From: Cymodocea nodosa
Lineage: Eukaryota; Streptophyta; Magnoliopsida; Alismatales; Cymodoceaceae
Assembly: GCA_036874045.1 (NCBI GenBank)
Contig: JAZBRI010000011.1
Location: 5,270,001 to 5,334,000, forward strand
Direction: 5' to 3'
Length of the DNA: 64,000 nucleotides
Position numbers and translations under genes: made by a program. The notes beneath the pieces are model-generated. The model was not told the DNA's origin. It saw only the letters and a list, made by a program, of their open reading frames with translations, and did no database searches. Position 1 is the stretch's first letter. Every line of letters begins with the position of its first letter. Positions 4,925-31,632 of this stretch are shown one piece after another.

Positions 4925-7193
4925 TTATCGACCCCTCCTAATTATATCACTTATAGCATTATATATTTTATCTCCTAGATGCCTAATATCATTTCTGATG
5001 TCGTTAAGCACTGCATCTAAGTCAGGAGGTAGTTGGGTTTGGTGTTCTGCTTGAACTGAATAACTTTGTTGTTGTTGTTGTATATGGTCTGTATCAGGTT
5101 GTTGTTGTTGTTGTCGTTGAGGTTTATGCATGGTCTGGAATTTTTGCAAATCTTTGACACTAAATGCTCTCATGCCTTTAGTTTCAGAGGGCCAGTCGGA
5201 TAAAGTCAATTGGCTTGCAAGGATTCTACATACAGCATCACCATAAAATAACTTTGAACTCATATGCTGTAGTTGAAACATAAATACATCAAACCAATTT
5301 ATTTGAATTCTATACAGCAGGCCATAAGTTTGCATATAAACAGCTTCTGCTAACTTTCAAATTGTGTCCAACTCTCTGAAATAAATTTGCATGCAATATA
5401 TTTGCAATAAACCTTGCCTCTGCATTCTGATTTTCCATTAATTTCATTTCAGAATATACATCTAGAATTTTTGATAAAGACTGAATGTTCCATTCCAGTT
5501 GTCTTATCATGTCAAATCTGTTGGTAACAACAACACCTTCATTCTTTAACCCCAAAACTTTAAAAATTAACTGAAGAGACAATATAAACTCCTGTTCATT
5601 TATTTGAGTTTTCAGAAAATTTCCATTCTTGACCAGATTGCTATAAAAAGCTGCAATAAGCTCTGTGTATTGCTTCCATTTCGTTCCTACTGGCAATAAT
5701 TTAATGAGGCCTTGAAATTGAAATAGATCTCTTATTTCCATCAAATTTTTGAATTTTATTGGACGAGCATGCAGAATTTGACATGTAATCAAATTATTGT
5801 ATTTTTGCAATGCTTCTTCAGATATAAAATGAATTGCATTACCTTGAATGTTTAATATTGTACACAAAGAAGGTGATACCTGAAGCCGTGATTTAGAGTT
5901 TAATTCATCTTCAGGAACCTCTTCTTCAAAATGAATGTCATGTTGTTCCTCTTCCAAAATATTATCTTGAAGCTGCTTAGGTAAGCTTGATTCTTCAACT
6001 TCAACAGTGTTAGGAACATTATCAATATGCTCAACATTCATCTGTTCAGTCTCTATAGAATGTTCAAAGTTCAATTTTTCCACAAATTCTACAGCCGGTG
6101 TATCTGTCTGTAATTGTTCATTTTGTTCAATAGATAATTCCATTGATTTATGCTGTGAATTCTCAGACTCTACGTCTATAGATTCCGTAGAAGGCTGGTT
6201 AACTTTTAGCTCTTCTAGAGTCTTAACAATTTCAATATCTGCTACTCCAGACAATTCAGCCTGTGAACTAGTTACTGCTTCAACATTGTCAATTATATTT
6301 GCAATAACTTGTTCGATGGCAAATGCCTGATGCTCTAATTTGTCAATATCTGCATCATTAGGACTTATACTAATAGAAAAACTTGAGCTCATATTTGACT
6401 TGGATTTCTTCTCAAGTTTTCTAGCAAGGGAAAATAAAGTCTCATTATCTTCATCAGTTTCAGTATGCTCAGAACTGATGAGTTTATTAGATGCACAATA
6501 AGGTACAATGTCTAGATATACATTGTTCTTTGGAAATAAATTTTCATCTAATTTTCCTTTTTCAATAGACTTTGTTTCCTAAAACATAATTTTTCTGACT
6601 TTCCTTCTTCTATAACATTTTTGTTTCTCCTTTTCAAGTATTGCTGTTTTCTTTTCAAATTGCTTCATAAAAGTTTTCTGCTTTAATTCTTCTAAGGCAC
6701 TTTCTATTGCAACGGCCTTTCGAAGACTATCAACTTTTGTTTTGTCTACAGCAATATCTGATTCTACTTGTTTTGAATATAAAGGAGTAGGGATAGCTGA
6801 TTCATGCTCTTCCTCAAATGCATGTAGTCTTGTACCGTTTATAGGAGTTTGAGGAGTTATATTTGATGAACCTACATCTTTTTCCAAATATTTTGCATAC
6901 TATTCTAAAAATGCAATCTCAGCACATTTCATTCTGTATTCTCTATCAAATTTACTTTGAATCCCCATGTATGTAATACTAGCATCAGTATTTTGGAGTT
7001 CTTGTCTAACTTCATTTAGTATACCTTCAGGAAAGAAATATTCACTATAAATTTCTACTAACCTTTTGTCCACTCGAAATATTTTCTTGAACCAAGTACG
7101 TGGAACTTCATCATTCTCTATTTCTTTTCCTTTTTCATCTCGTCTGCTTTTGCCTTTTCCTTTGCCACGACCTTTGTAGAACTTGGAGACCAT
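4925..7193 (-). pseudogene. Element A ORF3 (env-position ORF), broken
   Basis: Third ORF, downstream of pol, where Sireviruses carry their envelope-like gene. The start is ATG at 7191-7193 (MVSKFYKGRGKGKGK, strongly basic N-terminus), shared with element E. The middle is acidic and low-complexity. The C-terminal half has ARPIKF, FQGLIKLLPVG, LIAAFYSNL, IFKVLGLKNEGV and ANLFQRVGH. This pattern resembles the domain called putative plant transposon protein (PF20167 as I recall it). Two polyQ tracts precede a helical end (DLDAVLNDIRNDIRHL) and the stop at 4925. I see no transmembrane segment. Lesions: TAG at 6900-6902, TAG at about 6579, and a frameshift near 5330 at the LYANL/MQTYGLL junction. 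Function unknown; an envelope role is not supported by the sequence. Confidence 0.8.
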
Positions 7194-7700
7194 TGTCGTA
7201 GGTTGTAACAGCAACAAGCGGGAAAGATTTTCTGGACAAAGTTTACAAATAACCTAAGTTCCCGTGTAATAAGTGTTTAAATAGGGTTTTTAGGCGTATA
7301 ACTCAACGTGAAGAGAAGTCGGGTTTAGAAATTAAATAAATATTGAATAAAGTTTATTCAATCAAAGTACCTGAAATATTCAAGTATAACTCATTGAGTT
7401 AACTAACCTAATGAGCAAAACGTTGTTTAGAGGCAGTTTTACACATTACCTTATCTAACATAACGTCTAGTTAGTACAATTTTCGGATGCTTCCAACTGA
7501 AACGTTCCGAAAACAACACACATGCTAAACTTAACATTATCTTGAGAACATTGTAAACTATTTGATCATTTTGTCCTTTGAATCTAAAATAGTTTATTTG
7601 TCGTTTTAAATTATTTCATCAAGATTTTAAGAGGACAGTAATTCAGATTAACTAAGTTTTGTATTCTAAATTATATTAATCTGTTTTCGACAATGTTAAT
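7194..7700 (-). promoter_or_regulatory. Promoter-like, LTR-like segment upstream of ORF3 (element A)
   Basis: Between a tract-like GTAGGGGGAGG (complement at 7701-7712) and the ORF3 ATG. In element sense it has TAACTCAATGAGTTA-type dyads, TTCGGAACG/CATCCGAAA pairs and a TATA-like TATTTAAAC (complement at 7274-7282) about 85 nt before the ATG. The same order is found in element E (53091-53609). Read as a candidate internal promoter for ORF3; no expression evidence is available. Confidence 0.5.
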
Positions 7701-8772
7701 CCTCCCCCTACAAATATACTTCAAATATATTCAATCAAAATACAAAATATACTTGTAGTGACAATAGATGTTAAGTATAACTATACTTTTAAATTTTCTT
7801 TTCCGAGACTTCCGTTATCTTCACATCATCAAAAATGATTTCCAGAATCAATTCCTACTGTATATGAATCAAAACACAACTTTGAACTCAATGTGATTAA
7901 TTCAAGGAGAATAAAAGAATGTATCTCAAATAAACATTTTCAAAAGTACTAATGTTGATTCAATAAATCAGTAGTCATATTGGTAGAAACTATATGCGAT
8001 TCAAAGATATCTGTAATTAATGAAACAACTTTTTCTTTTCAAGACAGTAAATATTGATAATTTTCTTTAAAAGTTAGTTTGAAAAGCTTGAATCATACAA
8101 GAGCTTTCTAATGTACCTATGTAATGAGCTTTCAGTCAACAATCCCAGATCTGATCAGGACCTTAGGTTGCCAGATTTAAAGAATCATTTTTCAGGACAA
8201 CAATCCTTAAATACCTATATGCTCAAGTACAAAAGGCTCATGATCAAACTGATCAATAAACTCTCAAAGATTTTCACTTTGTAAGCACTTTTCATTTTAA
8301 GCAAAGTACATATGTATTCCATTAATACAGATGCAATAAAACACAAATCTCATACAATTTTTACTTCTATGATTGTACTGAGAATATGAATCAGTTTCAA
8401 TAGGCTTATACTTTTGATTAATAGTTTAAGATGAGTTACATTTAACTTATTCTACAAGTTTAATCAATTAAGTGAAATTCATGCATGATCATATGCATTT
8501 TCCTTGATTCAAAGAAAATATTTAATCAAAATTTCAGAATGTCAGAAGTATTTAATGTTTTTCATTTACATTTCCACTTAAAATCATAAAAACCATTAAA
8601 ATTGATAAACTACTTAAAATCAATAAGATACTACTATGATTTTACAATAAATACATAGTATCTTAAGCAGCAGTTTAGATATTACTTTAGATATTTATAA
8701 TAAGTATATAATATCTATGAGGTGAATAACATCATCAATAATATTTATCTTTTTATGTGGAGTTTAAGCATT
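7701..8772 (-). repeat. Noncoding block shared with gypsy G2 (element A copy)
   Basis: No gene. About 1.07 kb between the pol stop and the tract-like motif. It aligns by eye with 52030-53090 (element E, plus) and, strikingly, with about 58660-59900 in the gypsy element G2. Landmarks include TTGAATCATACAAGAGCTTT, TTTCAGTCAACAATCC, AGATCTGATCAGGA, GGTTGCCAGATTT, CTCAAGTACAAAAGGCT and CATTAATACAGATGCA. Confidence 0.8.
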
Positions 8773-11700
8773 TTACACATCACATAGCCTATAAATACCT
8801 AAATTTAATCTAATGTTGTAGAATGTAATTTCGTTTAGAGGTTTTGTAAATATATCAGCTAATTGATTTTTACTAGACACAAATTCTAATTTAATTTTTC
8901 CTTTAATTACGTTATCTCTTAGAAAATGATGTCTAACCTCTATATGCTTTGCTCTTGAATGTAATATAGGATTTTTGGAAAGATTTATTACAGAACTACT
9001 GTCATAATAAATCTCAGTTGTATCATAAGATAATCCAAAATCTTCTAAAGTTTTCCTTATCCACAGAATCTGAGTGCAACATAGTGCAGCAACAACATAT
9101 TCAACTTCTATAGTAGAAAGTGCTACACAGTTTTGCTTTTTACTAAACCATGACACCAAATTATTTCCCAATAATTAACATGTGCCACTGGTACTCTTTC
9201 TATCAGATTTAGATCCGGCACAATCAGCATCAGTATATCCTATAAGATCTATTGAACTATCCTTAGAATACTATAGTCCAAAATTTTTAGTTCCTTGTAT
9301 ATATCTAAATATTCTTTTAACAGCAATTAAGTGTGATTCCTTAGGATTAGATTGAAATCTAGCACAAACACACACAGCAAACATAATATCAGGTCTACTA
9401 GCAATCAAATAAAGTAAAGAACCAATCATACTTCTGTATTTTCTTTGATCTATAGATTTTCCTATGTCATCAATATCTAACTTTAAAGTAGTACTCATAG
9501 GAGTTCCTCGAATCCTTGTATCATTAAAATTAAATTTCTTAAGCATTTCATCTGCATATTTTTCCTGATTTAAAAGTATACCTTTATCCATTTGCTTAAT
9601 TTGAAGTCCTAGAAAATATGAAAGTTCTCCTATCATACTAATTTCAAACTGATTAGTCATCTCTTTAGAGAATATTTCTATCAACTTATCAGAGGTTGCT
9701 CCAAAGATTATATCATCCACGTATATTTAAATAACAATCTAATCTTTACGATCTCTCTTAATAAATAGAGTATGATCCACTTTTCCCATGATATAGCCTT
9801 TTTCTATTAAAAAAGTAGACAATCTTTCATACCATGATCTAGGTGCTTACTTCAAACCATATAAGGCTTTCTTCAATTTATACACAAAGTCAGGATTTTT
9901 AATATCTTCAAATCTAGGTGGTTGTTTTACATAAACTTCTTCATTAATTAAACCATTTAGAAATGCACTCTTTACATCCATTTGATATAATTTAAAATCC
10001 ATATAACAAGCATAGGCCAATAATATTCTAATACTTTCTAACCTAGCCACAAGAGCAAATGTTTCATCATAATCTAATCCTTCTTCCTATGTATACCCTT
10101 GTGCAACTAATCTAGCATTATTCCTTATAACTTGACCAATTTCGTTAGTTTTGTTTCTAAATATCCACTTTGTACCTATTATGGACTGATTTTCGTGTGG
10201 AGAGACTAATTCCCATACATCATTTCTGATGAATTGATTTAGTTCTTCTTGCATTGCCACTATCCAATTTTCATCAGATAATGCTTCTTGTATATTCCTT
10301 GGTTCCACCATAGAAACAAACATACTCATACTATTTAAATTTACTGAAGCTCTAGTTTTAACTCCCTCATTAATATTACCAATGACTTGAGTGATGGGAT
10401 GTGATGAAGAATAACGCCAATTTCTCTGATTTTCCTTAATATTCTTATCAACATCTGAAAGTCCATCACTTTCATCATTAGTTTGATCATTTAAGTTCAT
10501 ATTTTTTATTTTCTCAGATAAATCATCAATCTCTTTATTGATCTCTAACTCTTTTGGAAGATTAATCAAATCATCATTATCAGCTTTAGATTGAGATTCT
10601 CTAAGAGAATTTTCATTGAAGCTTACATGGAGGGTTTCTTCAATAGTCCTAGAAGTCTTGTTATATACTCTATAGGCTTTACTTCTAGTAGAGTAACCTA
10701 CAAAAATTTCTTCATCTGATTTGGCTTGAAATTTATCCCTTTTATCTTTAGTATTAAGAATAAAACACTTGCAGCTAAATGGTTTCATATAGGAAATTTT
10801 TGGAACCCTATTAAACATAATTTCAAAAGGAGTTTTATTAACATGAGGTCTTAAATGACTTCTGCTAATAACATAACAAGCTGTATTTACTGCTTCAGCC
10901 CAAAGATTTTGAGGTAACTTATGTTCATTCAACAAAGTTCTGGCCATTTCTTGAAGTGATCTATTCTTTCTCTCAACAACACCATTTTGACACGGTGCTC
11001 TTGGAAAAGAAAATCTGTGATCAATGTCATGCTCATTACAATAGTTATCCATTTGATCATTATCAAATTCAATTCCGTGATCACTCCTAAGTTTTTGAAT
11101 AGAGACACTCTACTCATTTTGAACAAAATTGCAAAACATTTTAAATTTTTCAAAAACTTCTATCTTAGATGCTAGAAAATATACTCAAGTGTATCTAGAG
11201 AAGTCATCTACTAAAACAAATACATACCGTTTACCACCAAGACTCATGATTCTTGTTGGTCCAAATAGATCCATATGTATAAGTTCTAAGACTCTCTTGC
11301 TTAAAATATCAGTTTTGGATTTAAAAGAGTTTTTGTGAGGTTTACCTAACTCACATGCATCACACATAAAGTCCTTTGAGTATTTAATCTTTGGTAAACC
11401 TCTCACTAAATATTTTCTAGATAGTTTATATAACAGTTTCATATTTATATGCTAATCCTTCTATGCCATAGATATGCATCACTAGTTTCAGCTAGCAAAC
11501 AAGAATTTAAATCAACTATACTAGAAGGTAAAGATAAAATACATACAGAACCTTTTCTTTTAGCAATAAACTTAATTTCATCTGTATTTTTATCAATTAT
11601 TTTGCATACATTATCTTCAAACACTACATAATATCCATTTTCAGTTAGTTTTATGACACTCAACAAATTAAATCCTAGGTTTTCTACATATAGTACATTC

Positions 11701-11888
11701 AAAATAACACAAGTAGGAGTTATTTGAACATTGCCCATACCTATGATTTTATCTTTGCTTTTGTTTCCAAATGTTACACTTCCTTTCATAGTATTTGTAA
11801 AATTTTGTAATAGACTTTTCTGTCCGGTCATGTGACTTGACGCTCCACTATCCAAGATCCATTTTGATGTTGTTTCCTCTTGCAACAC
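8773..11888 (-). pseudogene. Element A pol: protease, integrase, RT, RNase H (Ty1-copia), broken
   Basis: In element order: protease with DSGASSHM (near 11845), GAG-pre-integrase WHRR, integrase with HMDLFGP, LRSDHG and NGVVERKN (all three catalytic acidic residues kept), RT with SAFLNG, YGLK and YVDD, RNase H with DADCAGSKSDRKSTSG, HSRAKHIEVRHHFLRD and LADIFTKPL, ending at the stop at 8773. It is in the same frame as gag, separated by TAA. Lesions: 1-nt deletion at about 11452 (HRRI-GH), W to TGA at 11185, TAG at about 11112, TAG at 10087-10089, TAA at 9847-9849, and two stops just before YVDD at about 9727 and 9741. Nearly all nonsense changes are Q or W codons. Compared with element E most are private, but the TAG at 10087 is shared. 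Confidence 0.93.
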
Positions 11889-11891
11889 AAA

Positions 11892-14150
11892 TTAAGAAAA
11901 ACCTTTTCTTGGTACCCAATGTTGTTGAGGACCAAGTTCATTAAACGCATATTTCTTCTTTATGTTTAAAAATAGTTTAACATTATCATTTATATTTTTA
12001 TTAGTTGTAAGTACTATTGATTTATCATTAGCTTCATACTCACATATAGCATTATTGCTTTTACAATCATTCTTTTTGTTTTCAGATGTAGTATAATCAA
12101 GACCAAACAGATTTTTATTAGATGTTAATTTATTTTGGACATGCTTATACATTTCAGTAAGTTCATACCAAGATTTTGTACTTGTATTAACATTTTTCAT
12201 ACATACAAAATCTTTTTCTACACAAGAATTTTTAGTTTTATCACATGCAGAATGAGTAAATGGTCCAATATCAGTGTATTGAATTACATGCTCAGGTTTC
12301 TGAATTTTCAATTTACTACAATTGTCTGAAATTTTAGAAACATTAGAAACTGAATTTCCAGAACAAGAAACAAGATTTTTAGAAACATTTATAGTCATGT
12401 TAGAAGTACAATTTGACAGATCACATTGATTTATATTATTACTACATGATTCATCCCTTGAAGTACCTATTTCTTCATATTTATTACCTTGTTTCATAAT
12501 AAAAGGAATTTTAGTCTTAGATTTACTTGAACTGCAACTAATAAATCCTTTATTGGCTTGAGATTCAGGATATTTAGGATAATCAAATCCTAAGCCAAAT
12601 TTATAAGACACCGCAGGGGTACTAGTTAGTTTGTCTAACTTAGTTTGACTTAAATTCCATTTCTCAATGGTAGAATTTAAATCTTGCACTCTCAGTTTTA
12701 ATTTATCTATCTCTAATTCAAGTTCATTTATATTGTTTCTCAATATTTCATTTTCAAATTCTATCTTTAATTTTTCAGCATTTATATTCTGTATTTGTTC
12801 ATGCAAGATACATTCATTAAATCTAAATTTTTGCAACTCTCTAGCATGATTTTCATTATCACATTTAAACTTTTCTAATGTAGAAGACAGGAAACAATTT
12901 TCTTCTTCCATAATGGATGAAGATTTTCTAATATTCTTATTTTCCAATTTACATACTTTAAGTTTTTGTAATAATGCATGATAAGCACATAATAATTCAT
13001 CAAAGTTGAAATCTAAATGACTTTCAAGATCAGATATTACCTCAGACTCATCTGCCATGAAGCACACATGAGCAACGTCTTCTAACTCTTGTTCTCCTTC
13101 TGAATGTGAAGATTTTGATGCTAATTCCTCAAATTCAAACTCTTCAGACGTGTCATCCCAAGTGACCTTCAAAGCCTTTTTCTTGTAAAACTTTTTCTGT
13201 GTTTTCTGAGCTGTCTTCTTTTGATTTGTCCTACTTTGCTTTTCATTTTTCCTCATAGGACAATCTAGAGAAAGATGTCCAGGTTTCTTACAGTTGTAAC
13301 ATACATACTTTCTGGATGAAGAATTCTTGTCATTCAATGATTTTGACGTTGAGGGTTTATCATTTTTGTTCCTTTGCTGTTTCTTAGCTTTCCATGTTTT
13401 CTTGAATTTCCTAGTTAGCAAAATCAAATCCTCGTCAGAATCAGTAGATATATCAGAATCTGAATTAATTTCGAAGGCTATTTCTTTCTTCATTTTTAGT
13501 TTGTTGTGACTCAGTGATTCATTTAATTCAACTTCATAAGCTGTTAAATTTCCTATAAGTTCATTCATAGTATAAACATTTAAATCTCGTGATTCCTCAA
13601 TTGATGTTACTTTCTGAGACCATTTAGAACTTAGGGATCTGAGAATTTTCCTCACCAATTCCTTCTGTTCAAAATTCTTTCCTAAACATTTTAAAGAGTT
13701 TATGATATCAAGAAATCTGGAAAACATCTCAAAAATATTTTCGTCTTCATGCATCTTAAAGAGTTCATACTTATGAATCAACATGTTTATTTTAGTCTCT
13801 TTAACTTGAGAAGTACCTTCATGTGAAACTTCTAATGCATGCCACACCACATAAGCAGATTTATATGCCGACACTTTACTGAACTATTCATAACTCAATG
13901 CACAAAATAAAATATTTAAGCCCTTAGAATTCAGAGTTTCATTTTCTTTTTTAGTAATTGTCCAAGTATTATAAGGAGTAGTTAACGGAGTATATGGTTT
14001 AGAAATCATGAACCATAATTTATGATCTATACTTTGAAGAAAAACAGTCATCCTATATTTCCAATATTCAAAATGTATTCCATCAAATAAAGGAGGACGA
14101 TTAAGATTTTGGCCTTCATATAAAGAAAAATTACCATTTCCAATAGCCAT
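11892..14150 (-). pseudogene. Element A gag (copia gag with zinc knuckle), one premature stop
   Basis: Starts with ATG at 14148-14150 (MAIGNGNFSLYEGQN), typical of the copia gag N-terminus (RPPLFDGIHFEYWKYRM). The UBN2-like body includes EVSHEGTSQVKETKINML and MFSRFLDIINSL. Then come a lysine-rich linker, the CCHC knuckle CYNCKKPGHLSLDC, the conserved KVTWDDTS, a long coiled-coil region and the gag end GPQQHWVPRKGFS followed by TAA. One nonsense change is present: TAG at 13882-13884, CAG in the parent by inference (SYE-Q-FSK). At about 753 codons it is long, as in Sireviruses. Its product would form the virus-like particle shell and bind the RNA. Confidence 0.93.
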
Positions 14151-14336
14151 TTTACCTTAGATTTTTCAACCTATTTGATTTTAAATAGTCTAAAAGCTTT
14201 AAAACAACTTGAGCCTTAAATCAAGAAAGTTAAATGTATGCTTAGATATTAATTTCTGTTTAAAAACAAGGAAGGTAGAATAAGCAATGATATTAAATAA
14301 GTTGGTATAGATTTTATATCAAAGATTATTAACAAA

Positions 14337-14348
14337 GCTCTAATACCA
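14337..14348 (-). promoter_or_regulatory. Element A primer binding site (tRNA-iMet)
   Basis: TGGTATTAGAGC in element sense, two bases from the end of the 5' LTR. It matches the usual TGGTATCAGAGC except for one C-to-T change. Confidence 0.92.
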
Positions 14349-14350
14349 CT

Positions 14351-15950
14351 TGTAGGATCGTATGGCTACACAAGAAGGGGGTGAATTGTGTAATTTTAAT
14401 ATTTTTTGAAAAATAATTGAAATTTTAAAACTCAAAAACTAGTCGAGACATTGTTTTCATAAAATCATTTTTATTCAAGGTTTCAATTACAATATACAAT
14501 TCAATTCTCCTCAGAAATTGTAGATGCAATTATATTTCAATACCATGTTTCATCTATACAATTTCATAACTACAAACAAAGAAAACTAATTTGCGGAATT
14601 AAAAACATTTCTCCCTATTTGAGATCTTTCTTCTTCTTCTTCTTCTTTCTTCTTCAGTAATTCTTCAATGACGAATATCTTGTCTTTTTATGTTTCATCG
14701 AATTTTCTTTCTTCTAATACTTCAAATCTTTAGTGATGAAAATCTTACCTTTTTATGCTTCACTGAATTTTCTTTCACTTGAGAGATTTTTCCCGTAGAG
14801 GTGTTTTTGATCCCTAAAAAAGATTTTTCTTTTGGTGTGTAGGAATGGTTTGATCCTTGAAAAGATTTTTCATTTTGTGTACAAGGATGGTTTGATCAAC
14901 AAGAACTCTATGCCTTTTATATTGTATCCTCATTTCATGCATATCCTCCACGTTTAATCACTACTAGTTTTCCACTTCTCCATGTCGTTTCTTTTTCCTT
15001 CATCGAAACACACTCATTCTAACCCACGTTTATATTTTGAATTTTCTTTAATCATCAGTCCTAGATCTCTGAAAAATTTCCTGGAAAATAAACTTTCTCG
15101 TCCAAAAATTTTTCATCAGTGTAATAAGAAGTCGTTACTTTAATGTTAACTAAACGAGTAACACAAGTATATGTATATAACTTAATGTTTCTAACTTAAC
15201 GAGTTCCTCATGTGCCATTTCACGTGACAAGTACTGTAGCTAACTCAACGAACTAAGTCTGTGGTGTTATGCTAACTCAACAAACCAGCTTAACCTTTCT
15301 TTCGGAAGGTTAAACAATAACTCACTGATTCAATAATAAACAAATGTTTTTATAATAAGAATTTTACCACGTGCAAAAATAACAACTTAAGTTTATAACG
15401 CTAACTTAATGTGTTGCCTTAGTGTTCAATATAGCAACTCAACGCGTTTAGTTATGTTAACTTAACGAGTTAAATATGTGCACCTCACATGATACAGTAC
15501 AACATTCGTAACTTATAATTTCACCACGTGTTTAACACTAACTTAACGAGTTCGTCTCTTCTTTTACTCACTAACTTAACGAGTTATCACGTGACCTATT
15601 TTAACCTTTAAGCCTCTAAATTAACGAGTTCTCACGTGACCTCTATACAAACAAAACTCTAACTTAACGAGTTGTCTAAACGTGCACTGTTCATGATATA
15701 GAAGATATAACTTTAAAACATATCATGCTTTTCAATAAAAACACACATTAACTTAACATTTAGTTAAATGAGAAATTAATGCAACGAAATGACTAGTTAT
15801 TAACTTCAGATCCAACACAGACAAGTATTTATATCAATAAGCTTTTTCTATATTAATTGATGATTTTAATTTCTTTTCACAAGCAATAGTAATTGAGCAA
15901 ATATGATTATTTTCATTAAGCACACATCATCAAAACAAAAATACTCAACA
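14351..15950 (-). repeat. Element A 5' LTR
   Basis: 1600 bp, TGTAGGATCG...ACTCAACA, followed by duplication CACAT at 15951-15955. TATA box at 14915-14923 (AATATAAAA in element sense). It holds the same TAACTTAACGAGTT dyad series as the 3' LTR. Confidence 0.95.
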
Positions 15951-19300: not shown

Positions 19301-20478
19301 TGGAGGATCGTCTGTATCACAAGAGGGGGGGTGAATTGTATCTTTAGTAATTAAAATACTAGTGGATAAAACAAGAGCACAAGACACTTGTAAATGAAAT
19401 TCTATTCTTTATGTAAAGACAGAATTTACAATATCTTTTCAGCTCAATTCCTTTCTTGACGGTTTTGATATAGTAATGTTCGATATACAATTCAAATAGA
19501 AAAATAAAGCTCTTATTCAAAACTAATTTCGAATTGTATAAAACCTGATCTTTATGCACACAGCTTCTTTCCTTCTCTTTGCTCAACTTCTATATCTCTT
19601 CTTCTCCAGTTGTCGAATTTCTAGACTGCTTGCGTTTGTAGCTACTTTTCTGAAATTGCTTGACATTTTGAACTTCTTCTAATGTTGGAGAACTTTTTAG
19701 AATATGAATATTTAAACTTAACTTTTTAGTTAGGGATTCAGATTGAATATTCAGACTTGGTTTTTGTGAGATTGGGATCTTCTATTGTAATGTAGCTTGT
19801 ACTCTCTATTAGTAGTCGAACTCTATTGTCTTTTACATTCAACATGTTAATCCACTTAATCCATAATCCACGTACTAATTTTTTCATTAATCCAAATTAC
19901 TATCTTTTTGAGTTTCCACTTTATCCACTATAATTTTGAATTTTCACGATCTCCACTTCGTAGATTCATTGAAACTTTATCTTCCCAAAGTCTTGTAGAA
20001 TATCTTCTAAGTCTTCGATTTAGTCGAACACTTATCTGTAACTCTTCTAGTTTTTGCACCTGCAAAACATGTGACTAAACATAGAAAACTTATCTCTTCG
20101 TTAGTTATTTTATAAAACTCGAAGACTTATCTATCAATGCGTATAAAAACTCTAACAGTTATCTAACTATTCGATTTTCATTACCGAACGCACATGGAAA
20201 ACACGTGACAACTTAAAACATTAAAAACACACGTGCAGATAACTTAACTATATGAGTTTTTAACATAAACTATTCAACAAAAATGAAATGTTAACTATCC
20301 GAAAGTTTAACTATCGAAAATCTAACTCTTCAGAAATCTTTAATTTATCCGACATGAAAAAGAAACTTTCTGATAATCTGTTAACTATTATACTTAGAGA
20401 AATATACTTAGAGAATATTATTTAGACTTATTTAAAAACTTTAATAAAGCATATATCATCAAAACAAAATTCCTAACA
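19301..20478 (-). repeat. Element B1 3' LTR
   Basis: TGGAGGATCG...TTCCTAACA, about 1178 bp, followed by a polypurine tract. It is close to the B2 LTR at 25607. The conserved terminus is CACAAGAGGGGGGGTGAATT. The U3 side carries AACTCGAAG/CTTCGAGTT-type dyads and CACGTG. Confidence 0.92.
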
Positions 20479-20500: not shown

Positions 20501-20756
20501 CAAAACCTAATAAGTCAAATAATCTATCTCTTCTCCCCCTTTTTGGCATTATAAAAAAGTAAATAAAATGTAAAGAAGAAAAATATTCTAAGTACATATC
20601 GTTAAAACATGCATAACTTTCATGCATTAAGCATAAACTGTTTAAATATAAACCGTGAAAAATAATCACGTGAACATTAAATTCAATAAACAGTTTACAT
20701 AATATTTTTGGTTACAAATTACAAGAAATAAATCATGTAATACATAATTTGTATAA

Positions 20757-23391
20757 TCACAAGCCTCTTTGTCTTTGAAAAATACTAATCAGAGTATTTG
20801 AAATTTACTTTGCAATTTCTATACTAACTCTGTTTATCTGATCAATTACTGCTTGATCTAAATAATTTGTGAAACTTGTGATGGTTGCTATAAAAATTCA
20901 GAATGAATGTTTGTATTTATACCTGTATTTGTATTTGTTTGTATACCTGTATTTATATCTATTTGTATACCTATATTTATATCTGTTTGTATACCTGTAT
21001 TTATATCTGTATATTGCTGTTGTTCTGTAAATTATGTTGATTGTTATTGTTGCTATTGTGACTGTGTTTGCCGATCCTACTATTGTTGTTGTCAGACTAC
21101 AAGTGTATCTGCTTCCTAGTATTTTTGGAGTTCCTTTGCAGAGAAAGATCTTGACTTTAATCTTTTCTGTGGCCAAGGTGTAATATCTGTTTGACTTGCC
21201 ACAATTCTCAAAATCGTATCGCCATAAAATAATTTACTCTACAAATGTAAGATATGAGAAACAAAAATATCATATCAGTTCATCTGTATATGGTTAATTA
21301 ATGCATATGTAGCATAAAGACAACATCTACCAACTTCTGCACCATGACCAAACCTTTGAAACAATAAGCATGTAGTATTTTTGCAATAAAACGTGCTTGG
21401 CCATTTAAATCATTTAGTAATCTCAATGGTTTGTTGGCAGTTGGATCTTTGGCTAAACTTTTAATGTCCCATCCCAATTGATAAACCTATTTTCTTTCTG
21501 ATAATTTAACTCCTTCATTTTTCAGACTAAGTACTTGATAAAGTAAATCTGGAGTTAAATATATGTCATTGTCTTGTATATTGGAAATAGGAATACCTTC
21601 TTCCATTGTTAAGTTTGAGTAAAAAGAACTGATAAGTTTTGGTATAACAAGATGGCCTGGCTATTGTGGAAGTAGAGTCAACAAGTCTTGAAATTCAAAT
21701 ATTTCTTGTATATGTGCCATCCCTTCAAACTTAACTAGTCTTGAATATAAAACTGTAAAAGTTTTATATGTTTGAAATTTGTCATAATAGGAACTATTTC
21801 TGAACCATAATAATGTATTTTCGTCTAAACTATGTTCAGGATTAGGTATTTTCCTATCATGATGTTTTGATCTAGGACTTGTTCCAAGATTATCAGCAGC
21901 ATTGGAATTTTCAGATCTTTCAGAACTGGTGGAATTTCCATCAAAACTAGTATAAATGTCTGAAATATCTGTTATTGTCGTATCAATAATCTGCTAAAAT
22001 TCTTCTATTTGATCTTCTGGAAACATTTCAGTAGCAACAGTATCTGTAGTAATCTGTCTATTAGCAACATGTATGTCTATAATTGATCTATACAATAACT
22101 GTCTCTGTATGAAAGAATGTTCTATATCTATCTGTGTAATAGAATCATCCTATATTTCTGAAATTTCTATTCTTGAGACATAGGCAGTGTGATATTCAAT
22201 TTGTAACTGTGTATGTTGTTGATTATATACATTTATCAACAAGTATATTATATACTGTAATAGACATAACCATATGTATAAACTGTAGTATAAGCAACTA
22301 TGCCAAAAATCAAAAGTTTCTATCCGAGATACAGTTAGAGGAAGAATATCTGTACATTCCTCTTTAGATGAAATATCTTTTATATTCATAGACTCATCAA
22401 AAATATCATCAAAATTGATATCATCTATATATGTATCATCAAAATTTCCTACATGTTCTCTTTCCATAGGAAAAGAATGTGTGCTTGTAGCATGATGTGA
22501 AAAACTATCCATTGTATTAAAAGATACATTATGCACTAATGTGACACAATACCTTAGAGTGTATGCGTGTAATCCAATATTTGTCGCATCTATTGAGATT
22601 CCTGACACAAACGTCTATCCAGCTTCTGCAATGGAACATAGTTTTCCATTTTTCAATGATTCTTCTTTTTGTTGCAATATTCCTTGTACACCTATAGTTA
22701 GTCCAAAATTTTCTAATGTCTTTTTCTTTTTCCAACTATATGTCTGCAATGTTTTTGGTTGTTCAGGAGGTTCTAAAATTTTCTTAATTTCTCCTGTTAA
22801 AGGCACCTAGGGTTTTGATGGTCCTTCACCATGATGCCTAGGTTGTAATAATGGAATATAGAGTTTTAAGCTCTCAACCTCTACCATTTTTAGTTGATAA
22901 ACTCTTTGTCCTTCACTTCGAAGGCCCATTTTCCTAATGACAATTTTCTGTTCATCTATATATTGTTGAATGTCATCTAAAACAGCTAGGGGAAAATAAT
23001 GTTGGAAATACAAGGATTCTAATTCCCTGTTTGTATCTTCTATCATTGGTCCCCATTTCTTTCCATAGTAAGTGATAGACTGTACCGATTTTTCTAGTAC
23101 ATGTCTAGAACTTGTAACAACCGTAGGGTTAGGTTGTAAAGATCTTTTCCATAAGTGTAATGCGGAAAGTTTAGTCTATTTTAGTTTAAACTGTGTTTCA
23201 GGATAATTGTGAATAAACTTCCAACAAAAATTTTTCTCGTCTTGAACAGCTTTTCTAATTTCATGTAGTACTTCATTTGAAAAAGTGTACCTTGAGTAGA
23301 TGTCATTGATTTCACTTTGTATTTTCTGAAGTTCTAGCTCTCTTTTCTACACTTTTGTCATTCTACCACGTTCTCTTCCACGTCCTAACAT
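20757..23391 (-). pseudogene. Element B1 ORF3, degraded
   Basis: ATG at 23389-23391 (MLGRGRERGRMTKV), then a TAG shared with B2, then recognisable blocks: NRELESLYFQHYFPLAVLDD, RKMGLRSEGQRVYQLKMVEV, and the C-terminal domain (FYSNLT, LGLKNEGV, LFQRFGHG-like). Those three match ORF3 of A and E in order. Near the 3' end is an expanded repeat region at 20907-21030, then DQAVIDQINRV and the stop at 20757. Many stops and frameshifts are present. It is preceded by a TATA-like TTATAAATG (complement about 23493-23501) about 105 nt from the ATG. Confidence 0.8.
20907..21030. repeat. In-gene minisatellite, about 24-bp units
   Basis: Three to four units of TTTGTATACCTGTATTTATA plus TCTG within the ORF3 C-terminal region. 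B2 has a shorter version (27270-27345). ORFs read across it, on either strand, are repeat artefacts. Confidence 0.8.
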
Positions 23392-24305
23392 TGTCGATTA
23401 ATCTTCGCTATGCACTGTAGAGCTTAGTGGAAGTAAAGATTGTGAAGCTAGGGTTTTACTAAGGTAGAAGCATGGAAGGTTGTTAGTAAAACATTTATAA
23501 CTCTTCGAGTTTATAAACAAATAAACAGATTCAATCATTGAAATCATAAATATAAGATCCATTATTGATAAATAACTCGAGTGCTTACAATAACTGTACG
23601 AGCTTTACAACCAATAAAAGTAGAATACTTAGCATAACTATTCGTGTAAAGAAAATAACTTTGGGCTAAGTGAAAATTGAGAAAACTCAAAGACTTATGA
23701 TAACTATTTGAGTTTTGTGAGCAGTAAAGCACATAATTATACGAAAAATGAGAATAGTTATTATCAGAGATTAAGTCTTTTTTTAAAAAAAAAGAAGAAG
23801 AAGAATATTAAGTTAATTGTTCGAGTTTCTCGAATGGATAGGTGTGAAAGTCGAAGAGTTAAACATAACTGTTCGAGTTTCAACTGAGACATAATAAAGC
23901 AATGAAATTCAACACGTGCATAATTCTAACTTAAGGTGTTCAGATATTTTCGGATACTTATAAACCTAACTATCCAATGCTTAGATGCATTTCAGAGAGT
24001 TACCAGATAACTTACCAAACATTCACTTAAGATATGCATTTAGGCTTCGACACGTGCACTTCTGGAAATAATAAAATATTCTATTGAACGTTTTAAAACA
24101 TAACTATCCGATATATATATAATATAGTCTTCCGAAATCACAGAAAATTCGAATACTTAAGAATTAAAAAAAAACTGTATTTCATTGATAGTTTAGAAAT
24201 GTACTTAATTAATGTTAATTTTCTAAAATTATGCAGACTCTTTCATGAAAACTTATAATAGTTCATAAGAGTTGAATTATTATATGAGAAATTGCTCCTT
24301 CTACA
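23392..24305 (-). promoter_or_regulatory. Gypsy-LTR-like segment embedded upstream of ORF3 (B1)
   Basis: In element sense it starts after the tract-like complement of GCTCCTTCTACA (24294-24305) and runs to the ORF3 ATG. Plus-strand landmarks shared with the gypsy LTR at 57601-58643 are AATAATAAAATATTCT, AACATAACTATCCGATA, CAGAAAATTCGAATACTTAA, TTCACTTAAGA and ATGTACTTAATTAATG. It therefore behaves as a second LTR inside a copia element. Confidence 0.75.
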
Positions 24306-25390
24306 TAAATGTAGTCTAAAGAATCTATAACGTACTTAAACTGGGTTGCCAAGCCCTAAGTAAATTTGGCTTTAAAAGGTCAAATAGCTTACTTAAAAAG
24401 GATGTTAAGCCTTAAATAGATTTGAGTCTCCCTCCTTTTTTTTTCTTTTTTTTAAATTATGAATTAAATACAAAAATAAGAAGTAGATTTTAAAAATTTA
24501 GACTTTCTAGCTTTTATCTTATTTAGTTTATAAAAGATAATTCATAGAGAAACTTTCAGGAACTTTAAGAGAATTCAGTAATGAGTACACGAACTTAAGA
24601 AAATAAATAATGTATATTATGTGTAAAAAATAGATAACAACAAGGAAGAATAACAAAGATTATATGTACAGATTATGGCATGATTGTTATAACACCTTAA
24701 AAAATAAATTAAGCTTGAGTACATTGCCCCTTTTCTTTTCTTTTTTTTTTTGTTTATAAATATATATATATACTTTATATATTACCTCCCACAATATCAT
24801 CTTTTTACGTGATCACAATCTCTTACTTATGGGAAAGATAACCAGTTACTCAATGACAAGTGAGAACAGGTAAATTTTTATTTTTATTTTTAATATAATC
24901 TGAATTACTTGCAAAATGAGTTTTCAGTCAGCACATCCCAAACTAGTTAATTTAAGTGACTAGGGTTTAAGATCCCCCAACAGACTTAATTACTCAAGTA
25001 ATTACAGACAAAAAGAAGAAGAAATAAAATAGTAAATTAAATTAGAGGCAACCGTAAGACTTAATTTTTTCTAACAGAATGTTAATAACTTTCCTTTAAT
25101 AAAAAGTACATATTTCTATGTATTTTCTTATTAAAATCTCTGTAATAGCATATACATAAGTAAAAAAAAATACCGTTGGCACTCACATTGAATCAATTTA
25201 TCTTTCCTTAAGTAATCTTTTCTAAATTTTTCTTAAATAAATTGACTTCAATAAAACTCAGAATTTCATAAATTCTTAACTACTAGAAAGCTGTAATTCG
25301 AAAATAGATATTTTGTTTTGTTTTTTTTTAAAAAAAATTAATTTCTAAAACTACCGTTTTAACAAACCACAATGCAATGAACAAGACAAT
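24306..25390. other. B1 noncoding block between pol and the embedded LTR
   Basis: No gene. AT-rich, with poly-T runs (24437, 24736) and an (AT)n tract at about 24761. Near-identical to 30587-31615 in B2. I could not align it convincingly to the G2 block. Confidence 0.7.
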
Positions 25391-25606
25391 TTAAACATCA
25401 GATAACCTACAGATACCATGTTCTAATCGTAATTTTGAAAATGTATTTTCATCTAAGGGTTTTGTAAATAGATCTGCTAATTGTTTTGTGGTAGGAACAA
25501 AATTTAATACTATTTTTCCTTTTATAACATTATCCCTTAGAAAATGATGTTGAACTTCTATATGTTTTGCTCATGAATGTAAGACAGAGTTTTTAGACAA
25601 AGTTAT
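25391..25606 (-). pseudogene. Element B1 RNase H C-terminal fragment
   Basis: Minus-strand reading gives LSKNSVLHS, a TGA in place of the Arg codon, then AKHIEVQHHFLRDNVIKGK, QLADLFTKPLDE and RLEHGICRLSDV with a stop at 25391-25393. This is the end of a copia polyprotein, cut by the B2 insertion. The five bases before B2 are GTTAT. Confidence 0.9.
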
Positions 25607-26811
25607 TGTAGGATCGTCTGTATCACAAGAGGGGGGTGAATTGTGTCTTTAGTAATTAAAATACTAGCGGATAAAACAAGAGCACAAAACACTCGTAAAT
25701 GAAATTCTATTCTTTATGTAAAAAGAGAATTTACAATATCTTTTTAGCTCAATTCCCTTCTTGATGGTTTTGATACAGTAATGTTCGATATAAAATTAAA
25801 ATAGAAAAATAAAACTCTTATTCAAAACTAATTTTGAATTATATAAAACCTAATATTTATGCGCACAACTTCTTTCCTTCTCTTTGCTCAGCTTCTATAT
25901 CTCTTCTTCTCTAGTTGTCGAATTTCCAGACTTCTTATGTTTGTAGCTCCTTTTTTGAAATTGCTTGAAATTTTGAACTTCTTCTGATGTTGGAGAACCT
26001 TTCAGAATATGAATATTCAAACTTAACTTTTCAATTAAGGATCCGGATTGAATATTCAGACTTGGTTTTTGAGATTGGGATCCTCTATTGTAATGTAGCT
26101 CGTACTCTCTATTAGTAGTCAAACTCTATTGTCTTTCACATTCAGCATGTTCATCCACTTAATCCATAATCCACGTACTAATTTTTTCATTAATCTAAAT
26201 TACTATCTTTTGGGTTTCCACTTTCTCCACTATAATTTTGAATTTCCACGATCTCTACTCATAGATTCACTGAAACTTTATCTTCCTAGAGTCTTGTAGA
26301 ATTTCCTCTAAGTCTTCGATTTAGTCGAACACTTATCCTTTAAGTCCTGTAAAAACTCGAACACTTATCTGTAACTCTTCGAGTTTTTGCACCTACAAAA
26401 CACGTGACTAAACATACCAAACTTATCTATTCGTTAGTCATTTTATAAAACTCAAAGACTTATCTATCAATGCATATAAAAACTCAAACAGTTATCTAAC
26501 TATTCGATTTTCATTACCGAATGCACATGGAAAACACATGACAAATTAAAACATTAAAAACACACATACAGATAACTTAACTATACGAGTTTTTAACATA
26601 AACTATTCGACAAAAATGAAACGTTAACTATCCAAAAGTTTAACTATCGAAAATCTTACTCTTCGGAAATCTTTAACTTATCCGACATAAAAATGAAACT
26701 TTTCGATAATCTGTTAACTATTATACTTAGAGAAATATACTTAGAGAATATTATTTAGACTTATTTAAAAACTTTAATAAAGCATATATTATCAAAACAA
26801 AATTCCTAACA
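25607..26811 (-). repeat. Element B2 3' LTR
   Basis: TGTAGGATCG...TTCCTAACA, about 1205 bp, followed by the tract ATCTCCCCCTTTTTGATGAT. It is very similar to the B1 LTR, with a small extra segment at about 26330-26355. Confidence 0.93.
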
Positions 26812-27118
26812 ATCTCCCCCTTTTTGATGATGTCAAAACCTAATAAGTCAAATAATCTATCTCTTCTCCCCCTTTTTGGCATTATAAAAAAGTAAATAAA
26901 ATGTAAGGAAGAAAAATATTCTAAGTACATATTGTTAAAATATATATATATATATATATTTAAAACATGCATAACTTTCATGGATTAAGCATAAACTATT
27001 TAAATATAAATTGTGAAAAAGACATAATCATGTGATCATTAAATACGTTAAATAGTTTACATAATATTTTTGGTTACAAATTACAAGAAATAAATCATGT
27101 AATACATAATTTGTATAA

Positions 27119-29682
27119 TCACAAGCCTCTTTGTCTTCGAAAAATACTAATTAGTGTATCTGAAATTTGCTTTGCAATTTCTGTACTTACTCTGTTTATC
27201 TGATCAATTACTGCTTGATCTAAATCATTTTGTGAAACTTATGATGGTTGTTGTAAAAATTCAGAATGGATGTTTGTATTTATTCCTGTATTTGTATCTA
27301 TATTTATACTTGTATTTATATCTATATATTGTTGTTGTTCTGAAAATTGTGTTGATTGTTGCTATTGTGACTGTGTTTGCCAATCCTGTTGTTGTTGTTG
27401 TTGTTGTTGTTGAATTACAGGTGTATCTGCTTCCTGGTATTTTTGTAGTTCCTTTGTAGAGAAAGATCTTAACTTTAATCTTTTCTATGGCCAAGGTGTA
27501 ATATCTGTTTGACTTGCCACAATTCTTAAAATTGTATCACCATAAAATAATTTACTCTACAAATGTAAGATATGAGAAATAAAAATATCATACCAGTTCA
27601 CCTGTATATGGTTAACTAATGCATATGTAGCATAAAGACAACATCTGCCAACTTCTACACCATGACCAAACCTCTGAAACAATGAAGCATGTAGTATTTT
27701 TGCAATAAAATGTGCTTGGCCATTTAAATCATTTAGTAATCTCAATGGTTTGTTGGCACTTGGATCTTTGGCTAAACTTTTAATGTCCCATCTCAATTGA
27801 TAAACCTATTTTCTTTCTGATAATTTAACTCCTTTATTTTTCAGACCAAGTACTTGATAAAGTAAATTTGGAGTTAAATATATGTCATTATCTTGTATAT
27901 TGGAAATAGGAATACCTTCTTCCACTATTAAGTTTGAGTAAAAAGAACTGATAAGTTCTGGTATAACAAGATGGCCTGGCTGTTGTGGAATTAGAGTCAA
28001 CAAGCCTTGAAATTCAAACATTTCTCATATATGTGCCATCCCTTCAAACTTAACTGGTCTTGAATATACAACTGTAAAAGTTTTATATGTTTGAAATTTG
28101 TCATAATAGGAACTATTTCTGAACTATAATAATTTATTTTCATCTAAACTCTGTTTAGGATTAGGTATTTTCCTACCATGATGTTATGATCTGGGACTGG
28201 TTTTAATATTATCAATAGTATCTATATTTTTAAAGCTTTTAGAACTAGTGGAATTTCTATCAAAGCTGGTATAAATGTCTGAAATATCTGTTATTATCGT
28301 ATCAATAATCTGCTAAAATTTTTCTGTTTGATCTTCTTGAGACATATCAGTAGCAACAGTCTCTGTATTAATTTGTCTATCAGCAACATGTATATCTATG
28401 ATTGATCTATACAACAACTATCTTTGTAGGAGAGAATGTTCTATAATAGATTCATTCTGTATTTCTGAAATTTCTATACTTGAGACATTGGCAGTGTGAT
28501 ATTCAATTTGTAACTGTGTATATTGTTGATTATATACATTTATCAACAAGTATATTATATACTGTAACAGATATAACCATATGTATAAATTGTAGTATAA
28601 GCAACTATACCAAAAATCAAAAGTTTCTTTCCGAGATACAGTTAGAGGAAGAATATCTGTACATTCCTCTTTAGATGAAATATCATCAACATTCATAGAC
28701 ATAGTGTCTATATCATCAAAAATATCATCAAAATTGATTTCATCTATATATGTATCATCAAAATTTCCTACATGTTCTCTTTCCATAGGAAAAGAATGTG
28801 TGCTTGCAGCATGATGTGAAAAATTGTCCATTGTATTAAAAGATACATTATGCACTAATGTGACACAATACCTTAGAGTGTATACTTGTAATCTAATATT
28901 TGTCATATCTGTTGGGATTCCTGACACAAACGTCTGTCCAACTTTTACAATGGAACATACTTTTCCATTTTTCAATGATTCTTCTTTTTGTTGCAATATT
29001 CCTTGTACACCTGTAGTTAGTCCAAAATATTCTATTGTCTTTTTCTTTTTCCGACTATATGTTCTAAAATTTTCTTAATTTCACTTGTTAAAGGCACCTG
29101 TGGTCGTGATGGTCCTTCACCATGATGCCTAGGTGGTAATAATGGAATATAGAGTTTTAAGCTCTCAACCTCTACCATTTTTAGTTAATAAACTTTTTGT
29201 CCTTCACTTCGAAGGCCCATTTTCCTATTGGTAATTTTTTGTTCATCTATATACTATTGAATGTCATCTAAAACAGCCAGGAGAAAATAATGTTGGGAAT
29301 ACAAAGATTCTAATTCCCTATTTGCATTTTCTATCATTGGTCTCCATTTCTTTCCGTAGTAAGTGATAGACTGTACCGATTTTTCAGGTACATGTCAAGA
29401 ACTTGTAACAACTATAGGGTTAGGTTGTAAAGTTCGTTTCCATAGTTGTAATGTAGAAAGTTCAGTCTGTTTTAGTTTAAACTATGTTTCAGCATAATTG
29501 CAAATAAACTTCCAATAGAAATTTTTCTCGTCTTGAATAGCTTTTCTAATTTCATGTAGTATTTCATTTGTAAAAGTGTACCTTGAGTAGATGTCGTTGA
29601 TTTCACTTTGCATTTTCTGAAGTTCCAGCTCTCTTTTCTACACTTTTGTCATTCTACCACGTCCTCTTCCACATCCTGACAT
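27119..29682 (-). pseudogene. Element B2 ORF3, degraded
   Basis: ATG at 29680-29682 and stop at 27119-27121. Same gene as in B1, with the early TAG after MTKV in common. Clear blocks are FEFQGLLTLIPQQPGH, LISSFYSNLI, NLLYQVLGLKNKGV, AHFIAKILHASLFQRFGHG, VGRCCLYATYALV and IQVNWYDIFI. These are followed by an eight-residue polyQ run, QYIDINTSINIDTN-like repeats and DLDQAVIDQINRVSTEIAKQ. The order matches ORF3 of A, so the family is coherent despite low identity. Several stops and frameshifts make it non-coding today. TATA-like box at 29783-29790, about 105 nt before the ATG. Confidence 0.82.
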
Positions 29683-30574
29683 TGTCGATTAATCTTCGCT
29701 GTGCACTATAGAACTTAGTGGAAGTAAAGATTGTGAAACTAGGGTTTTACCAAAGTAAAAACACGAAAGGTTGTCAGTAAAACATTTATAACTCTTCGAG
29801 TTTATAACCAGATAAACGGATTTAATCATTGAAATCATAAATATAAGATTCGTTACTGATAAATAACTCGAGTGCTTACAATAACTATACGAGTTTTACA
29901 ACCAATAAAAGCAGAATACTTAGCATAACTGTTCGTGTAAAGAAAATAACTTCGGGCTAAGTGAAAAGTGAGAAAACTCGAAGACTTATGATAACTATTC
30001 AAGTTTTGTGAGCAGTAAAGCACATAACCATACGACAAATGAGAATAGTTATTGTCAGAGATTAAGTCTTTCAAAAAAATATAAGAATATTAAGTTAACT
30101 ATTCGAGTTTCTCGAATGGATAGGTGTGAAAGTCGAAGAGTTAAACATAACTGTTCGAGTTTCAACTGAGACATAATAAAGCAATGAAATTCAACATGTG
30201 CATAATTCTAACTTAGGGTGTTCAGATATTTTCGGATACTTATAAACCTAACTATCCGATGCTTAGATGCATTTCTAAGAGTTACCAGATAACTTACCGA
30301 ACATTCACTTAAGATATGCATTTAGGCTTCGAAACGTGTACTTCAGGAAATAATAAAATATTCTATTGAACGTTTAAAACGTAATTGTCCGATATACATA
30401 CAATATAGTCTTTCGAAATCATAGAAAATTCAAATACTTAAGAATTAAAAAGAAACTGTATTTCACCGATAGTTTAGAAATGTACTTAATTAATGTTAAT
30501 TTCTTGAAATTATGTAGATTCTTTCATGATAACATATAATAGTTCATAAGAGTTGAATTATTATATGAGAAATT
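29683..30574 (-). promoter_or_regulatory. Gypsy-LTR-like segment embedded upstream of ORF3 (B2)
   Basis: Same as 23392-24305 and better preserved at its end: the tract-like complement of GCTCCCCCTACA is at 30575-30586. It contains dyads such as AACTCGAAGA/ATTCAAGTTT and CGGATACTTA/TAACTATCCG. Confidence 0.78.
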
Positions 30575-30586
30575 GCTCCCCCTACA

Positions 30587-31632
30587 TATATGTAGTCTAA
30601 AGAATCTATGGCGTACTTAAATTGGGTTGCCAAGCCCTAAGTAGATTTGGCTTTAAAAGGTCAAATAGCTTACTAAAAAGAAGGATGCTAAGCCTTAAAT
30701 AGATTTGAGTCTCTCTATATATTTTTCATTTTTTCATTTTTTTTAAATATGAATTAAATACAGAAATAAGTAGTAGATTTAACAATTTATACTTTTTGGC
30801 TTTTATCTTATTCAGTTTACAAAAGATAATTCATAGAGATGTACCACCAAGAACTTAAAAGAATTTAATAATGAGTACACGAACTTAAGAAAATAAATAC
30901 AGTACATTATGTGTAAATAGTAGATAATAACAAAAAAAAATAACAAAGATTTTATGCACAAATTATGGCAAGATTGTTATAACACTTGGAAAATAAATTA
31001 AGCTTGAGTACATTGCCCCCCCCCTTTTTTTTATATTCATATATATATATACTTTATGTATTACCTCCCACAATATCATCTTTTTACGTGATCACAATCC
31101 CTTGCTTAAGGGAAAGATAACCAGTTACTCAATGACAAGTGAGAACAGGTAAATTTTTTTTTTTTAATATAATCTGAATTACTTGCAAAATGAGTTTTCA
31201 ATCAGCACATCCCGAACTAGTTAGTTTAAGTGACTAGGGTTTAAAATCCCCCAACGGACTTAATTACTCAAGTAATTGCAGACAAAAAAAAAAGTAAATT
31301 AAATTAAAGGCAACCACAAGACTTAATTTTTCTAACAAAATGTTAATAACTTTCCTTTAATAAAAAGTACATACTTTCTATGTATTTTCCTATTAAAATC
31401 TCTGTAATATCATATACATAAGTAACAAAAATACAGTTGGCACTCACATTGAATCAATTTAACTTTCCTTAAGTAATCTTTTCTTAATTTTTCTTAAATA
31501 AATTGACTTCAATAAAACTCAGAATTTCATAAATTCTTAACTACTAGAAAATTGTAATTCGAAAATAGATATTTTGTTTTTTTTTTAATAATAAAGACAT
31601 TAATTTCTAAAACTACCTTTTTAATAAAATAG
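30587..31632. other. B2 noncoding block and deletion junction
   Basis: Copy of 24306-25390 up to ATTAATTTCTAAAACTACC, then a switch at about 31617-31632 into the end of gag. A C(10) run followed by T-tract is at about 31017-31031 and (AT)n at 31038. Confidence 0.75.

Follow-up and report, generated by a model that had tools for sequence, protein, structure and literature searches.

Pre-ORF3 linkers of Sirevirus-like copia elements in Cymodocea nodosa share sequence with the 3' end of a probable gypsy element: a possible exchange of control modules

The expression route of the ENV-like genes of plant Sireviruses is debated, and extra repeat boxes ahead of ENV have been described without an account of their origin. 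According to the available sections of the closest study, the repeated motif (RM) boxes of ENV-containing Sireviruses are found both in the LTR and upstream of ENV, and an internal promoter for ENV is discussed (Bousios et al., 2010, PMC2829016). Of 79 linker boxes, 77 were situated upstream of ENV; the linkers of four RM-bearing, ENV-less elements had none. An extra PPT is mentioned in the same sections for Athila4 and Calypso (PMC2829016). The accessible text of Neumann et al. (2019, PMC6317226) reports extra ORFs in 74% of SIRE elements, with high heterogeneity, and raises possible ancient recombination among copia lineages; a copia-gypsy linker case is not noted in that text.

The window considered here, i.e., the whole 64-kb stretch of Cymodocea nodosa DNA that was analysed, has 31% GC and contains nested LTR retrotransposons; its domains and the named relatives of its integrase mark it as plant DNA. 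The comparison element is a full-length Sirevirus-like copia element with an ORF3 (A2, 2798..15950, minus strand). Its LTRs are 94.7% identical and, judged by eye, ATGTG flanks it on both sides. The PBS TGGTATTAGAGC at 14348 agrees with the TGGTATCAGAGC-like motif except for one mismatch, polyC signals are located at 14386 and 2847 (one mismatch allowed), and the terminal PPT, TGGGGGAG, is a single base off the octamer AGGGGGAG. The domains stand in copia order, Retrotran_gag_2, SH3_retrovirus and RVT_2, the RVT_2 match lying just below the curated cut-off. A1 (47510-55351, plus strand) is a 91% copy of A2 with both ends missing. Its ORF3 (53610..55351, plus strand) is cut at 55349-55352 by a gypsy-type LTR copy, gL; the similarity between A1 and A2 stops at 55349.

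A second Sirevirus-like family, B, is present as two 3' halves, B1 (25608-19301, minus strand) and B2 (25606..31628, minus strand), which are 89% identical. The 5' LTR and most of pol are missing in both. B1 has the order given in the initial annotation of this DNA: the pol end (25387), a linker, the ORF3 ATG (23391), the PPT (20488) and the LTR. The pol piece (25387..25608, minus strand) is a copia C-terminal fragment that shares 77% identity with the end of element A's pol across 222 columns. The upstream part of the linker (24306..25386, minus strand) has no clear relative; its one match, to a gypsy 3' UTR, is marginal (score 42, shuffle maximum 38). Beyond the decayed ORF3, octamers AGGGGGAG at 20488 and 20540 precede the 3' LTR (19301..20478, minus strand), which ends with a polyC-rich stretch and CCAACA. 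The octamers of B2 are at 26821 and 26873. Family B thus carries AGGGGGAG about 10 bp before the 3' LTR and an extra copy after the ENV-like ORF, as expected of a Sirevirus, and the Sirevirus polyC-rich integrase signal is found at the LTR 3' ends (19336 and 25641, minus strand).

Adjoining B2, gag-like ORFs with a zinc knuckle extend over 31636-32907 (minus strand); they may be the gag of B2, joined to the post-pol part via an internal deletion. Two copia internal regions (38845-47509 and 33023-38822, minus strand) lie in tandem, are 71.5% alike and seemingly have the middle LTR in common (LTRs at 47509-45686, 40626-38845 and about 34612-33023). Possibly this is a complex element or a nested pair. 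ARAGORN found no tRNA genes in the window. An endogenous pararetrovirus was considered and rejected since the ORFs scanned had no supporting domain. IMG/VR scans with gypsy integrase and copia RT queries returned no relatives. A tandem gypsy array with ORF3 as gag was rejected as well because B1 and B2 end in a Sirevirus PPT and LTR.

The gypsy-type LTR occurs in two copies. The initial TG of gR (57601..58645, minus strand), at 58645, immediately follows GGTATGGGGGAAG; the other end, that of low coordinate, was judged by eye and may lie below 57601. gL (55352..56515, plus strand, 3' end not defined) is 81.7% identical to gR over the first 529 columns. The two copies form inverted repeats (55350-58645) facing one another across about 1.1 kb. 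Next to gR lies a gypsy 3' UTR (58646..59990, minus strand), which is flanked by GGTATGGGGG tracts at 59981 and 58656. Both G-rich tracts we take to be gypsy PPTs of the Athila/OTA kind. A plant gypsy integrase (61207..62313, minus strand, rve E 3.2e-15) is encoded upstream of gR in the same orientation. Among the 120 integrase matches listed (of 7799), 29 have, besides rve, PF17919 and/or PF17917, presumably RNase H models of gypsy-type polyproteins. Judged from the same-strand integrase, the two GGTATGGGGG tracts and the LTR start which a gypsy-type PPT adjoins, the gL/gR LTR probably belongs to a gypsy element. Its connection to the integrase is likely rather than proven, because 270 bp (60639-60371) have no confirming second copy in the window. 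A second LTR of the gypsy insertion to which gR belongs was not recognised within the window, and no PBS of the TGGCGCC type, sought with up to three mismatches, adjoins gL or gR.

Several further gypsy features were observed. The middle parts of the two LTR copies are unlike (57860-58116, minus strand, and 55850-56236): one is similar to the LTR of family A, the other is an array of TCGGAYAGTTA boxes, as if the middle were an exchangeable cassette. A second partial gypsy 3' region with a GGTATGGGGG tract of its own (59755-60371 vs 63383-64000) leaves the window at the right end. An F-box ORF (62186-62668, plus strand; Pfam F-box E 8.7e-9) overlaps with its start the opposite-strand gypsy integrase ORF. 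At 1130-2215 (plus strand) nine CCGTTGAGTTA boxes come after another gypsy integrase, and beyond them lie a TATA-like stretch (by eye) and an ORF of 100 aa (1912-2212), i.e., a layout of boxes and then an ORF beyond pol exists in a gypsy element, too. Homology of this ORF to the N-terminal part of ORF3 was rejected (hhalign probability 0.2%).

The B linkers are homologous to the gypsy-type LTR. A profile built from gL and gR matches with its positions ~101-566 a block in B1 (23848..24265, minus strand, nhmmer E 2.9e-47) and the equivalent block in B2 (30132..30546, minus strand, E 1.3e-43), which disposes of the case, foreseen in the initial annotation, that these segments do not align. In BLASTN B1 24265-23948 is 70.7% identical to gL 55448-55785 over 341 columns (E 5.6e-42), and B1 24265-23967 is 68.1% identical to gR 58545-58195 over 354 columns (E 3.3e-34). 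Smith-Waterman scores were 195 (B1/gL), 172 (B1/gR) and 194 (B2/gL) against maxima of 37, 38 and 36 in 40 dinucleotide shuffles per comparison. When three types of repeat box were masked, the four comparisons between B linkers and gypsy LTRs still scored 80, 106, 111 and 74, with maxima of 38, 39, 35 and 37 in 100 shuffles. A stretch of 124 columns almost wholly precedes the boxes, with no box in gL and a single imperfect one, at the end, in B1; its score is 87, and 500 shuffles did not exceed 32. Two words taken from the match, one box-free, the other with an imperfect box in B1, were found exclusively at the four expected places of the window (2 and 3 mismatches allowed). In view of the shuffle scores and the survival of box masking we conclude that the homology is real.

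Its extent is smaller than first proposed. The initial annotation had seen about 0.9 kb of LTR homology in 23392-24305 and a complete-looking gypsy 3' end; the homology stands, the size and the completeness do not. The aligned part of B1 comprises 418 bp, about 46% of that segment, and corresponds to the upstream half of gL and gR, whose starts are 55352 and 58645. No match in the B linker was found for the gypsy PPT, for the first ~65-100 bp and last ~600 bp of the LTR, or for the part in which the LTR has its own TATAAAAG (TATA part; gL 56416, gR 57682). The marks of a complete gypsy LTR, i.e., TG...CA ends, a gypsy PPT directly ahead and a target duplication, were not found in B1. Because the LTR-like block is common to both B copies it was part of the element before B1 and B2 separated. 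Nor does the A-rich tract near 24449 qualify as the PPT it had been called, as B2 is without GGAGGGAG at that place. A better PPT candidate is present in B2, where the Sirevirus-type octamer AGGGGGAG (30576..30583, minus strand, starting at 30583) immediately precedes the LTR-like block; B1 has AGAAGGAG there, so the octamer is intact in one of the two B copies. Homology of the B linker to the LTR of its own element beyond the boxes was rejected: the score was 31 against a shuffle maximum of 38, with box-sized matches exclusively.

A larger match, absent from the initial annotation, concerns family A. Both A linkers carry about 1 kb with homology to the gypsy 3' UTR: in A1 the block 52084..53106 (plus strand) is homologous to the gypsy stretch at about 59850-58771 (nhmmer E 1e-115), and the Smith-Waterman score is 474 for linker positions 52120-53106, compared with a maximum of 37 in 40 shuffles. 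The distance from the Sirevirus pol stop to the beginning of the match is at most about 100 bp, and that from the first gypsy tract at most about 130 bp. It ends about at a AGGGGGAG tract (53081..53088, plus strand, in A1; the A2 equivalent is at 7709, minus strand), and the gypsy copy is degenerate at that place. The octamer precedes the box part of the linker in three of four linkers (A1, A2 and B2). At 63834-64000, in the other, partial copy of the gypsy 3' region, the start of this UTR is repeated (E 1.8e-16). Put together, one gypsy 3' end, UTR followed by LTR, matches with its UTR the linker of Sirevirus A and with its LTR the linker of Sirevirus B. No alignment was obtained between the linkers of A and those of B (score 36, shuffle maximum 41); a single ancestral block of UTR, PPT and LTR is therefore a hypothesis, and either two events or very fast decay would be needed. 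The A stretch after the octamer is at most marginally similar to the gypsy LTRs (35 vs 34 and 23 vs 33, shuffle maxima given second).

The boxes have a distribution of their own. TCGGAYAGTTA, with up to two mismatches, matches 195 times in the window, and 176 of these matches fall into ten clusters of three or more. Seven of the clusters are in LTRs (two in B, three in C, two in gypsy LTRs) and an eighth is in an LTR-like stretch (16130-16695). The other two are the B linkers ahead of ORF3, with 13 and 12 matches; the B1 cluster of 13, counted on both strands, covers 23498..24159 (minus strand). The match between A linker and gypsy 3' UTR lies outside every TCGGAYAGTTA cluster. Two further box types are less specific. 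CCGTTGAGTTA has 80 matches (10-17 in five shuffles), with its biggest clusters in the three A LTR copies (12, 10 and 10) and after a gypsy integrase (9); it is present in the linkers of A1 and A2 (3 and 2 matches) and in C and gypsy LTRs. ACTCGAANAGTTA has 76 matches (8-13 in five shuffles). Four clusters of eight, its largest, occupy the LTRs and linkers of family B, and the LTRs of A, C and gypsy have smaller ones. In both copies of family C the few hundred bases between pol and 3' LTR contain none of the three boxes, which fits the rule in the available sections of PMC2829016 that linker boxes accompany ENV. Boxes are thus found in the LTR and before the ENV-like ORF and are absent from the ENV-less linker, the A linkers having a mere 2-3.

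The ORF3 region of B1 (20540..23391, minus strand) is interrupted by stops and is homologous to the ORF3 of element A (tblastx E 4e-19, and fragment alignments). Ka/Ks of ORF3 is 0.56 for A1/A2 over 493 codons and 0.89 for B1/B2 over 336 codons, the latter as expected had the B ORF3 decayed following insertion. For seven ORF3 pieces, the protein P0001 and six of the window, there was no Pfam match up to E 5 apart from two at E 0.1 and 0.19. P0001 is the single protein relative found for the A ORF3, 83% identical across 40% of the query and encoded on a contig of 1493 bp; the B piece had none. As the initial annotation had it (about 105 nt), a TATA-like box precedes the ATG: TATAAAT (23493..23499, minus strand) starts at 23499, 108 nt ahead of the ATG at 23391, and B2 has it, too. 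The chance probability of TATAWAW in a 61-nt stretch of the same base composition is about 0.13, so that in such AT-rich DNA the box counts as weak evidence. The stretch from TATA to ATG is 90.8% identical between B1 and B2, no better kept than ORF3 (92.7%) or the LTR (93.0%). Position and box content of the B linker fit a putative internal promoter of ORF3, and the block may switch on ORF3 separately.

The homologies, the box distribution and the co-occurrence with ORF3 are features of the DNA itself. We consider it rather probable that the elements have exchanged control modules and that the module in the B linker serves as a putative ORF3 promoter. In this reading the U3-type block of B has a common origin with the upstream half of the probable gypsy LTR of the same genome, and the linker of family A has a block of its own in common with the 3' UTR of the same gypsy element. 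The exchange itself may have proceeded by template switching on co-packaged RNA or by recombination of nested copies. As a consequence a box-rich U3-type module would have come to lie before ORF3, where it would act like an LTR promoter: an LTR-derived block rich in palindromic boxes, a TATA-like box, a leader of ~100 nt and the ORF3 ATG would follow each other, presumably giving a separate ORF3 transcript. The pre-ENV homology to LTR and 3' UTR of a probable gypsy element offers a testable origin for the extra boxes. It further suggests that the border between the copia and gypsy superfamilies is open to control modules, whose passage protein trees would miss. A bolder generalization, doubtful at present, is that the pre-ENV region of Sireviruses is a relict 3' end (3' UTR, PPT and U3) which crossed between copia and gypsy and became a second, LTR-like promoter for ORF3. 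If true, this would account for the co-occurrence of ENV with extra boxes and for the extra PPT before ENV in some elements.

The direction of such an exchange is another matter. That the flow was reversed, i.e., that the gypsy element built its 3' UTR and LTR from linker and LTR modules of Sireviruses and now contains copia control DNA, is in our estimate nearly an even call. A module resembling the A LTR (58014-57887 in gR) is present in 3/3 A LTR copies and in 1/2 gypsy LTR copies (not found in gL at E up to 1e-3), which for that module alone slightly favours movement from Sirevirus to gypsy. The degenerate gypsy sequence where A has its AGGGGGAG tract points the same way, and so does the absence from B of the gypsy element's own terminal signals, contained in its PPT and in the initial ~65-100 bp of its LTR. 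Against it, the shared gypsy UTR is in the ordinary gypsy position and its start recurs at 63834-64000.

An exchange of modules with a promoter function in the B linker has also to be weighed against a homologous linker which is real and nonetheless a mere relict, ORF3 being made via splicing or stop-codon suppression. Both routes, splicing being either predicted or shown, are named for other plant env-like genes in the available sections of PMC2829016, and we regard this as possible, if on the doubtful side. With linkers of about 2.0 kb (B) and 1.6 kb (A) and 40-54 stops per sense frame, suppression is disfavoured, and the boxes immediately precede ORF3.

It is improbable that a solitary gypsy LTR was inserted in the ancestor of B1 and B2 and was carried along functionless. 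Solo LTRs are common in plants, and gL itself interrupts the ORF3 of A1; yet in both B copies solely an internal part of the LTR is present, the alignment comprises no LTR ends, and the corresponding place in the A linker is taken by another part of this gypsy 3' end. The initial annotation had named a solo LTR with its own target duplication as a counter-case: no LTR terminus and no target duplication are seen. Finally, an ordinary Sirevirus linker whose likeness to the gypsy LTR reflects nothing but palindromic boxes, evolved repeatedly as binding sites for host factors, is very improbable and as regards sequence homology largely refuted, for although several families have boxes in their LTRs and weaker matches to the LTR profile exist in C LTRs on both strands, the order is kept over about 420 bp, the match survives box masking, the nearly box-free 124 columns score far above their shuffles, and the match of the A linker to the 3' UTR is outside the main box clusters.

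How does an exchange of control modules compare with described systems? Grande gene23 is, in the text at hand, likewise an extra ORF beyond pol in a long 3' region with a promoter of its own (PMC7264820); the promoter here is putative. Gene23 is antisense, whereas ORF3 is in sense orientation and is known from sequence alone. The complex elements of Triticeae (Sabot and Schulman, 2007, PMC1950507), which according to the accessible sections arose by template switching, have in common with our proposal a mechanism by which two elements fuse in the course of reverse transcription. There the products are large fused elements; here it is a small control module in a linker. Gypsy elements of the Athila/Calypso type (OTA) similarly possess two G-rich tracts between pol and the 3' LTR, as far as the sections on them go (PMC2829016). 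What differs in the present element is the stretch between the tracts, which has its homologue in a Sirevirus linker; the element's place among the gypsy lineages is our own presumption.

The closest relatives are the ENV Sireviruses. They share with the present elements the boxes in the LTR and before an ENV-like ORF, the AGGGGGAG tracts and the hypothesis of an internal promoter (PMC2829016, available sections). Since the ENV-side boxes and this hypothesis are in print, that part of the layout was already described for Sireviruses, and the proposal in the initial annotation that the arrangement is new applies to the gypsy homology. The open-licence literature, a body outside which most subscription papers fall, yielded at abstract level no description of a Sirevirus pre-ENV linker homologous to a gypsy LTR or 3' UTR. 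The RM boxes are, in the same sections of PMC2829016, Sirevirus-specific and absent in classic copia elements; here box and flanks are common to a gypsy-type LTR, and the linker of a second Sirevirus, A, is shared with a gypsy 3' UTR. At the level of sequence, the new property of this locus is alignable homology across the copia-gypsy divide.
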